Positions 24,888 through 30,061 of a stretch of 64,000 bases of DNA are shown here, piece by piece. The notes under the pieces were generated by a model that saw nothing but the letters and a program-made list of their open reading frames with translations, ran no database searches and was not told where the DNA came from. The position numbers and the translations under genes are program-made. Every line of letters begins with the position of its first letter. Position 1 is the first letter of the stretch. This DNA is from Myroides oncorhynchi (GTDB lineage Bacteria > Bacteroidota > Bacteroidia > Flavobacteriales > Flavobacteriaceae), in contig NZ_JAJJMP010000001.1 in assembly GCF_020905415.1 (NCBI RefSeq), positions 2,677,501 through 2,741,500 on the forward strand. The letters are read 5' to 3'.

Positions 24888-25113
24888 AGCTACTGATTTA
24901 GAATTAGTAGTACAAAGTTTTGTTTTTTTGTCTGTTGTTGAGAGGACTCTGCTGTTAACTTATGTATAAGTGTAGTCAAATAGGGAATTTGTGTAATGAA
25001 ATGGATATAAGTAGTATTAATCAAGTCTCCTCTATCTGGCTTGTTAGTTAATCTGAAAACTGGACTATGCAGCAGACAAAAACCAGTCCTACATTTGTCT
25101 TTCAAAATAGAGA

Positions 25114-26256
25114 ATGATGAATATACAAATGGTTGACTTGCAACGTCAATATGCAAAGATAAAAAGTGAAATAGATACAGGTATAGAACAGGTTATTAAA
25201 ACAAGTACTTATATCAATGGACCTGCTGTAAAAGAATTTACAGATAATCTAGCTGCGTATACGGGAGTTAAACATGTAATTCCTTGTGCTAATGGAACTG
25301 ACGCATTACAGATAGCACTTATGGCGTTGGGATTAAAGGCTGGTGATGAGGTAATCACACCTTCGTTTACATTTATTGCTACTGTGGAAGTCGTAGCATT
25401 GTTAGGATTGACGCCAGTGTTCGTGGATGTAGATAAAGATACGTTTACCATTAATACAGATAGCTTAGAGCAAGCGATTACTCCTAATACTAAAGCGATT
25501 ATTCCCGTTCATCTATATGGACAATGTTCTAATATGGGAGATATTCTGAAGATTGCGGATGTACATAATATTGCAGTCATAGAAGATAATGCACAGAGTA
25601 TAGGAGGGCACTATATAGCGGATGGTAATAGTCATAAGACAGGAACGATGGGGACTGTTAGTTGTATTTCTTTTTTTCCCTCTAAGAACTTAGGAGCTTA
25701 TGGTGATGGAGGAGTAATGATGACTAATGATGATACACTCGCTGATACGATGCGTAAGATATGTAATCACGGATCAGAAAAGCGGTACTATCATGAAATA
25801 GTAGGAGTAAATAGCAGACTAGACTCTATACAGGCAGCTGTACTAAATGTCAAGTTAAAATACTTAGATGAATACTGTGATAAACGAAGAGAAGTTGCCC
25901 ATTACTACAATCGAGCTTTCGCAAATACACCTGCGATTATAACTCCTTTTGAACCTGAATATAGTTATCATGTATATCATCAATATACGATGATATTAGA
26001 AGGTGTAGATAGAGATGAGGTACATACCGAGTTAGCCAAATTAGGTATCCCAAGTATGATTTATTACCCTATCCCTTGTCATAAACAAGAGATGTTTAAA
26101 CATCTAACCGATAGAGAGTATATATTACCTAATACAGAATATCTGACATCAAGGGTATTATCTCTTCCTATACATACGGAGTTATCAGAAGAGGAGTTTA
26201 TTTTTATAACAGAAGGAGTGCTAAAGGTTGTAGAAGAGTTAAGAGGAAAAAAATAA
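25114..26256 (+). CDS. DegT/DnrJ/EryC1/StrS-family sugar aminotransferase
   Basis: PLP-dependent enzyme that places an amino group on a keto-sugar nucleotide, as in surface polysaccharide synthesis. It is 380 residues. It has the family start MVDLQRQYAKIKSEID, the cofactor region CANGTDALQIAL near 58, and the PLP lysine in FFPSKNLGAYGDGG near residue 191. RLDSIQAAVL and the late IPCHKQEMF fit the fold. Two ATG codons lie together at 25114 and 25117; the second could be the true start. No other polysaccharide genes surround it. A tRNA gene follows 16 bases after the stop. Confidence 0.93.
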   Translation: MMNIQMVDLQRQYAKIKSEIDTGIEQVIKTSTYINGPAVKEFTDNLAAYTGVKHVIPCANGTDALQIALMALGLKAGDEVITPSFTFIATVEVVALLGLTPVFVDVDKDTFTINTDSLEQAITPNTKAIIPVHLYGQCSNMGDILKIADVHNIAVIEDNAQSIGGHYIADGNSHKTGTMGTVSCISFFPSKNLGAYGDGGVMMTNDDTLADTMRKICNHGSEKRYYHEIVGVNSRLDSIQAAVLNVKLKYLDEYCDKRREVAHYYNRAFANTPAIITPFEPEYSYHVYHQYTMILEGVDRDEVHTELAKLGIPSMIYYPIPCHKQEMFKHLTDREYILPNTEYLTSRVLSLPIHTELSEEEFIFITEGVLKVVEELRGKK

Positions 26257-26272
26257 CTCTTATATATGGAAT

Positions 26273-26343
26273 GGTTCTGTGTCTGAGTGGTTAGGTTTGG
26301 CTACGCAATAGCCAATACATTGGTTCGAATCCAATCGGAACCT
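26273..26343 (+). tRNA. tRNA-Cys(GCA)-like gene with C33 and a closed anticodon stem
   Basis: The cloverleaf can be drawn fully. Acceptor GGTTCTG pairs with CGGAACC (one U-G). The T arm is ATTGG-TTCGAAT-CCAAT. The D loop contains GGTT. The anticodon stem TGGCT/AGCCA encloses ACGCAAT, giving anticodon GCA at 26305-26307. Discriminator T at 26343 and the 4-base variable loop match tRNA-Cys identity. Unusual points: base 33, nearly always U, is C; A32 and U38 can pair, leaving a 5-base loop; and the D stem is weak, with one mismatch. CCA is not encoded. It may be a diverged second copy, a decaying gene, or a tRNA with a role outside decoding. Confidence 0.8.
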
Positions 26344-26379
26344 CTATTTTATCAGTATTGAGTTTTAAAATTTAAATAA

Positions 26380-29704: not shown

Positions 29705-29890
29705 AATGACATCACCCCTGATTCCCGCAGGTTATTAGTCTTGTTAACTTTGGTAGGTACTCTGACTTATATTGCTATTTCCATCAAGGAGTATAACTAT
29801 ACTTACAGTAGCGGGTCTGTTTAGGATTTGCACCTAATTCCCCTTTTCATCTCTAAAGGCGAAGGCAATTAGTGAATCCGAAATTAAGAG
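29705..29890 (-). promoter_or_regulatory. Cobalamin (B12) riboswitch
   Basis: On the minus strand, in order: TTAGGTGCAAATCC (about 29837-29824), AGACCCGCTACTGTAAG (about 29818-29801), then the B12 box AAGTCAGAGTACCTACC (29767-29751). A C/G-rich stretch, CCTGCGGGAATCAGGGG near 29733-29715, forms a likely expression platform before the gene. The layout is that of a class I cobalamin riboswitch; the outer boundaries are approximate. It controls the DUF4465 lipoprotein gene that starts about 60 bases downstream. Confidence 0.85.
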
Positions 29891-30061
29891 TGCTAAAGTA
29901 GATAAATAGTTGATTAGATAGTTGGATTGTTGTTAATTTAACTTAATTGTTTTTTAAGTGATTGTATATCAGTTATTGTTTTTACTAGGACTAGGTTCTT
30001 TAAGAATATTATTTGTGGTTAGAAGTTGTATAAAGGATATAGAAATACCGTTTAAATACGC

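Follow-up and report, generated by a model that had tools for sequence, protein, structure and literature searches.

The window, the whole stretch of 64,000 nucleotides from Myroides oncorhynchi that was analyzed, contains a tRNA-Cys(GCA) gene with a C instead of a U at position 33. As the original prediction had placed it, this gene is situated between a gene for a sugar aminotransferase of the DegT type and a phosphatidylserine decarboxylase (PSD) gene, all on the same strand (Table 1). The latter, psd2, proved to be a second psd of the genome, which, like the MocR-type regulon described below, the letters alone could not reveal. The tRNA gene begins 16 bases after the end of the DegT-type gene, and psd2 starts 36 bases after the tRNA; the other psd copy of the genome is at G000:C1:326866-327498. 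Since the gaps are short, the three genes are likely cotranscribed. A scan of low power, in which shuffled sequences gave 0.7 sites, found no terminator-like site between 24900 and 27200.

Table 1. Features of the window at and around the C33 tRNA-Cys gene
Feature	Position	Strand	Basis or score
CysRS gene, only one found in the genome	9431-10906	-	
Candidate tandem MocR-type operator CTGGCTTG-N16-CTGGACTA	25036..25067	+	matrix score 17.3-17.4
DegT-type PLP-dependent sugar aminotransferase	25114..26256	+	best NCBIfam match PseC, below its cut-off
tRNA-Cys(GCA), C33, U73, no encoded CCA	26273..26343	+	ARAGORN, RF00005
psd2, second phosphatidylserine decarboxylase gene, 220 aa	26380..27042	+	NCBIfam NF003678, above cut-off
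Cobalamin riboswitch aptamer	29735-29897	-	54.9 bits

ARAGORN assigned positions 26273-26344 to tRNA-Cys(gca), and in a search of the whole genome the gene reached 41 bits against RF00005, with a cut-off of 29; it was absent from the gathering-threshold Rfam scan of the window. The cloverleaf with Cys identity read from the letters alone was thereby confirmed. It has 7/5 acceptor and T stems and a four-base variable loop, with no mismatch in the acceptor, anticodon and T stems and one U-U mismatch, 10-25, in the D stem. The GCA anticodon (26305-26307) and U73 (26343) provide the Cys identity. CysRS determinants include, in the cited part of PMC9976931, a minor C3-G70 pair; position 3-70 is U-A here, as in many normal Bacteroidota tRNA-Cys.

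The anticodon arm is unusual. To our knowledge, U33 and an arm with five pairs and a seven-base loop are near-universal in tRNAs. The window tRNA possesses A32 (26303), C33 (26304), A37 (26308) and U38 (26309), and the pairs 26-44 (U-A) and 32-38 (A-U) may both form. This would extend the stem to seven pairs, as had been predicted, and departs from the elongator pattern of U33 with a seven-base anticodon loop. Folded in isolation with RNAfold, the arm formed six pairs with the loop CGCAA, those of the C33 tRNAs of two relatives formed all seven pairs, and two normal arms formed five pairs with a seven-base loop. The tRNA is probably impaired in general decoding, in agreement with the hampered decoding proposed at first.

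In the genome, 99 RF00005 matches were found at E <=10, 97 of them above the cut-off, and ARAGORN called 97 tRNAs in the tRNA regions, two of them tRNA-Cys. The second tRNA-Cys is a U33 copy at G000:C1:1210825-1210895 with the loop C32-U33-GCA-A37-A38. The C33 gene is consequently an additional copy, one of the possibilities considered originally, and the other case, that it is the sole tRNA-Cys and therefore the normal decoder, was ruled out. A second CysRS as an orthogonal partner was also ruled out, because each of 24 genomes possesses a single CysRS gene. That of the window's genome is located about 15 kb from the C33 tRNA, a distance that is about 17-35 kb in G146 and in M. marinus (G424).

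A tRNA-Cys with the loop C33-GCA-A37 occurs at 37 loci in GTDB r220, 34 assigned by title to Bacteroidota and 3 to Actinomycetota. A BLAST search of the window stretch against 60 relatives yielded two more C33 copies, in G020 and G024; five matches at E <=1e-5, from other families, proved to be ordinary tRNA-Cys with U33. When 398 genomes of the same genus were searched without demanding C33 or GCA, 20 matches at E <=1e-5 were obtained in 11 genomes, the window's included. All 20 keep ACGCAAT, and their stems vary with compensation, so that random decay at this locus among relatives, which would have marked a pseudogene, was not found. Genome G146 carries four C33 copies in tandem, G099 and G290 carry two plus one, and G319 is a near-twin of the window (99%) with a tRNA that differs by one T-stem change, G53-U61. 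The C33 tRNAs are thus almost certainly a real and distinct family of extra tRNA-Cys genes, as judged from sequence comparison, and no description of it was found among the papers listed by searches of an open-access library.

The trait appears to be rare and patchy, because in a phylum sample of 395 Bacteroidota genomes the search pattern was found only in the window's genome (1/395), a lower estimate, as the pattern misses other D loops (several Myroides-like copies and one in L146). The latter, at L146 1319-1391 in Flagellimonas pelagia (G429), is a further C33 tRNA-Cys located beside the normal copy. By pattern, a U33 tRNA-Cys was also seen in 29 of the 34 C33 genomes; three of the five without a match are Actinobacteria, and these five may reflect limits of the pattern. 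At five loci in four genera (Flagellimonas, Zunongwangia, Sinomicrobium, Flavobacterium), the tRNA lies in blocks of 1.3-7.7 kb with about 97-99% identity, indicating recent transfer or shared contamination. Two IMG/VR viral contigs (L168, L169) contain C33 tRNA-Cys genes, and with only these two matched, a phage-borne trait was discarded. The genes of the three Actinobacteria (L107, L110, L129) are apparently of separate origin. Olivibacter jilunii (L119, L127, L131) and Olivibacter sp. XZL3 (L133, L135) have several dispersed C33 copies per genome, which share a conserved mismatch, 29-41, in the anticodon stem. In Maribacter (L103, L113), the normal tRNA-Cys is followed on the same strand, after about 70 bases, by the C33 copy, and this vicinity together with a mostly common acceptor stem suggests duplication in place.

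Among 39 distinct C33 sequences, the pair 32-38 forms in 32, the pair 26-44 in 35 and both in 29, and U73 is kept in 34, the copies without it being from Terrimonas, Mucilaginibacter, Rufibacter and Sabulibacter. Neither pair is formed in any of 32 distinct U33 sequences. In a chosen set of 19 distinct sequences, the Myroides-like plus the GGTCGGA lineages, both pairs are present in all 19, with covariation: position 26-44 is A-U in 9, C-G in 8, G-U in 1 and U-A in 1, and position 32-38 is A-U in 17, C-G in 1 and G-U in 1. In the alignment of these sequences, 98.8% of the cells are paired and both sides have changed in 13 of the 22 pairs; as the rows are related to each other, counts from shuffling cannot be read as probabilities. 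C32 is lost in 18 of the 19, whereas A37 is kept in every one. The pair 51-63, C-G in 32/32 U33 sequences, is U-A in 17/19 and C-G in 0/19 of this set. Canonical Bacteroidota tRNA-Cys(GCA) agrees with the C33 form in GCA, U73, the 7/5 acceptor and T stems and the TTC loop, but the latter has the 32-38 and 26-44 pairs, U51-A63 instead of C51-G63, and is an extra copy.

The acceptor GGTCGGA of one C33 group is identical to that of normal Sphingobacteriaceae tRNA-Cys (L162-L166), which suggests these as the source of that branch. The other 20 C33 sequences, from Maribacter, Rufibacter, Sabulibacter, Olivibacter, Terrimonas, Mucilaginibacter, Pedobacter, Actinobacteria and others, have both pairs in 10 of 20 cases and may have separate origins. 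A lone pseudogene was ruled out for the lineage by the kept loop, the tandem copies and the covarying pairs. Of the decay considered in the original prediction, what remains is the D-stem mismatch of the window copy; for the lineage it does not hold, since C33, A37, GCA and both additional pairs persist and the stems compensate.

The genes around the C33 tRNAs recur among relatives in shuffled order; many of their names were read by eye, and 17 distinct proteins were tested against families. Three Myroides-like orders were found: thioredoxin-like, tRNA, psd and MocR (L189, L192, L196, L198); serine hydroxymethyltransferase (SHMT), DegT, pdxY and tRNA (L190, L193, L197, L203); and DegT, tRNA and psd (window, L191, L234). 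In Dysgonomonas mossii (L235), about 6.3 kb contain pdxY, the tRNA, a 76-aa thioredoxin-like gene, SHMT, YggS, a HAD hydrolase, psd and MocR. In Sphingobacterium psychroaquaticum and in strain DW12, the block reaches a CcoN-like oxidase and aminotransferases of classes III and V, which read as HemL-, ArgD- and SerC-like; SerC- and ArgD-type genes are present in L205. Flavohaemoglobin-like and Rrf2-like genes, read by eye, occur near pdxY and the tRNA in L194 and L203. The thioredoxin-like protein of the islands had no family match. Thirteen island proteins had no match in 30 normal tRNA-Cys loci (L138-L167, flanks of 1.5 kb).

An extra psd was present in 13 of 17 C33 genomes, an extra close SHMT in 8 and an extra CcoN-like gene in 8 (the window's genome included), each compared with 0 of 7 genomes without C33, a comparison confounded by kinship because all seven were chosen Flavobacterium-type relatives. 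The window's genome has no second SHMT and no thioredoxin-like gene; its CcoN-like gene and a MocR gene are located at C1:3041-3046 kb. The MocR gene adjoins CcoN-like and CcoO-like genes in G000 (L232) and G146 (L201), with the CcoN-like protein below the ccoN cut-off, and the MocR protein of the window's genome exceeds the NCBIfam cut-off for PdxR. In G353, psd2 and the C33 tRNA are on different contigs. The tRNA seems to be optional to the island, because the thioredoxin-like gene was found in 15 of 395 Bacteroidota and none of these 15 loci (8.5-14 kb) has a tRNA-Cys. A similar module that lacks the tRNA (L277-L291), read by eye, has a 77-aa thioredoxin-like gene beside an 87-aa gene, a MarR-like gene, a truncated haemoglobin, or MocR plus DapA-like genes. 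In the stretches seen around the C33 copies of Maribacter, Rufibacter, Olivibacter, Terrimonas and Mucilaginibacter, an island of this kind was missing; these copies may be independent cases or products of decay.

By eye, no enzyme that uses Cys-tRNA was recognized in the islands, and no nitrilase in the stretches read. The idea that Cys-poor island enzymes might indicate a shortage of Cys was dropped, since five SHMT and six PSD pairs, some PSD frames being over-long at the start, displayed no clear difference.

Comparison of upstream regions revealed a tandem box, CTGGACYA plus CTGNACCA at a distance of 23-25 bases, upstream of the C33 gene or its operon at several loci. It matches the direct repeats CTGGACYTAA, which are described in the cited part of PMC5320631 as the operator of the MocR protein TauR. 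The box matrix was derived from 17 sites, none of them upstream of the C33 tRNA, picked after a first scan with a matrix that came from its own sites. Scores of >=20.9 were obtained within 300 bases of 8 of the 42 C33 genes (L234, L199, L195, L189, L192, L196, L121, L112), which represent about four lineages, and of <=9.4 within 300 bases upstream of the other 34, the window's gene included; 40 tRNA-Cys genes in comparison loci (35 U33, 5 C33) had scores of <=11.5. The site of L112 may serve MocR or the tRNA because it is located between the divergent MocR gene and the tRNA. Other C33 tRNAs are members of operons headed by a box: GNAT-tRNA-YggS (L101, L120), pdxY-tRNA (L194), DegT-pdxY-tRNA (L190, L193, L197, L203) and thioredoxin-like-tRNA-pdxY (L235). 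No box was found for the G146 array or for the block shared by L109 and L123.

The strict form of the box had 12 matches among the 24 genomes; 8 of the 17 C33 genomes and none of the 7 others contained it, 9 of the 17 lacked it, and its reversed control gave 0. Ten of the 12 were at island genes, and G146:C1:2242566 and G281:C4:11182 were next to other genes. In the window, the candidate operator precedes the DegT start by 46 bases, and a score of 17.6 was obtained for its G319 counterpart; from the window alone it may have arisen by chance, because another window site reaches a higher score of 19.7. These data make it very likely that C33 tRNA-Cys is a member of a MocR-type regulon.

Similar arrangements have been described in Pseudomonas. 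In the cited parts of these reports, the response to cyanide includes expression of the oxidase gene ccoN4, driven by the MocR protein MpaR; the authors propose that cyanide is sensed through PLP, with which it reacts (PMC10790758; see also PMC12688703). The cio cluster of P. pseudoalcaligenes comprises MocR, CioABC, SerC3, HisC3, ArgD3, DapA1, MetF3, CysM3, MaeB3 and Nit4 (PMC10138600), and most of its detected members were strongly up-regulated with cyanide in the table of that report, in which CioB3 and CysM3 were not detected. As far as these parts go, MpaR-ccoN4 of P. aeruginosa and the cio cluster both combine, as do the islands, a MocR regulator with an alternative terminal oxidase, and the cio cluster also has extra PLP enzymes such as SerC and ArgD. 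The islands contain MocR, an isoform of a terminal oxidase and extra PLP-dependent enzymes, psd2 being a pyruvoyl enzyme. In contrast to the Pseudomonas clusters, they hold psd2, SHMT2, pdxY, YggS and the C33 tRNA, and no tRNA is mentioned in the cited parts of the Pseudomonas texts. By this analogy, the Bacteroidota island resembles the cyanide-induced MocR clusters in its logic.

Extra tRNAs of similar character are also known. The selC* tRNA-Cys of anaerobic bacteria is, in the cited part of PMC7609411, likewise extra, structurally odd, of Cys identity and linked to special genes, but its body is 8/4 and its variable arm longer, its anticodon is sometimes UCA, and some groups possess a second CysRS. 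The C33 tRNA, with its 7/5 body, short variable loop and a single CysRS, is not of this type. Staphylococcal cell-wall synthesis uses a non-proteinogenic tRNA-Gly, a spare tRNA that can be charged but should, by its features, be used less by the ribosome. It differs in the amino acid, and here no wall ligase was seen and the linkage is to a stress island.

PLP and pyruvoyl enzymes have a reactive carbonyl in common, which cyanide can trap, for PSD at its pyruvoyl cofactor, and haem oxidases are the classic target of cyanide. The natural signal of the regulon may well be cyanide or a like poison, by analogy with Pseudomonas. We tentatively interpret the C33 tRNA as a specialized tRNA of a regulon for cyanide or carbonyl poisons, by which cysteine would be used. 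Cyanide, or a similar poison of carbonyls and haem, would trap PLP, and the MocR protein would then switch on the spare enzymes together with the C33 tRNA, which CysRS would charge. C33, the rigid arm and the altered T stem would keep most of this tRNA out of general decoding, and it might supply or hold cysteine for a separate use during stress. A chargeable tRNA that is held back is favored because position 33, the loop size and the T stem have all changed without loss of the identity bases; that it is indeed held back is about as uncertain as it is plausible. A more far-reaching and rather unlikely proposal is that these genes represent a tRNA-Cys class withdrawn from decoding but chargeable, under the control of a PLP-sensing MocR, for a non-ribosomal step of cyanide tolerance.

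The C33 tRNA could instead be a spare decoder, which replaces a normal tRNA-Cys disabled by the poison and decodes without modification. The normal tRNA-Cys with C32, U33, A37 and A38 may need a sulfur-dependent loop modification, which cyanide would block by trapping persulfides. With C33, a U33-A37 pair, possible in the normal tRNA, can no longer form, and with A32 the thiolation site at C32 is gone, so that the C33 tRNA could do without modification when decoding. This agrees with the island logic of spares (extra SHMT, PSD and CcoN-like proteins), with the dosage suggested by the four tandem copies of G146, and with the loss of C32 and conservation of A37 in the 19-sequence set. C33, the Watson-Crick pair 32-38 and the changed T stem should however weaken decoding, the loop chemistry is known from other tRNAs, and the island SHMT and PSD have no special Cys use, which leaves a spare decoder unlikely.

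Ordinary vitamin B6 balance under a PdxR-like regulator, with cyanide not being the natural signal, would explain the PdxR assignment of the MocR protein and the presence of pdxY and YggS in the islands of relatives. PSD, on the other hand, depends on pyruvoyl and not on PLP, the CcoN-like oxidase has no link to B6 balance, and both fit a carbonyl and haem poison; moreover, the Pseudomonas clusters of the same logic are cyanide-induced in the cited parts of their descriptions; B6 balance is accordingly rated improbable. As a cis element, a tRNA-shaped structure cut by RNase P and RNase Z might set the ends or the stability of the operon mRNA, since the tRNA is often on the same strand as psd2, YggS, pdxY or a thioredoxin-like gene at a distance of about 16-310 bases. 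The CysRS identity bases and the C33/A37 loop would then be needless, and some copies have no co-directional gene directly downstream (an opposed tRNA-Tyr array in L190 and L194), making this role very unlikely. A decaying duplicate, to which the U10-U25 mismatch of the window copy, G53-U61 of its G319 twin and the four genera with copies lacking U73 would point, is the least probable explanation and already contradicted for the lineage by the two-sided changes in almost completely paired stems and by the tandem copies and operators in relatives.

Judged by its sequence context, the C33 tRNA seems to belong to a bacterial kit for poison tolerance rather than to be a broken gene. The family abandons U33 and the standard arm in a coordinated way while keeping Cys identity, and its genomic links offer an explanation open to testing, namely a stress regulon of the MocR type with spare enzymes that use carbonyl cofactors. 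If this is true, a tRNA would join the known parts of cyanide tolerance as a regulated piece of a poison-resistance island. The C33 family also provides a natural system for the effects of C33 and an extended anticodon arm on the ribosome.
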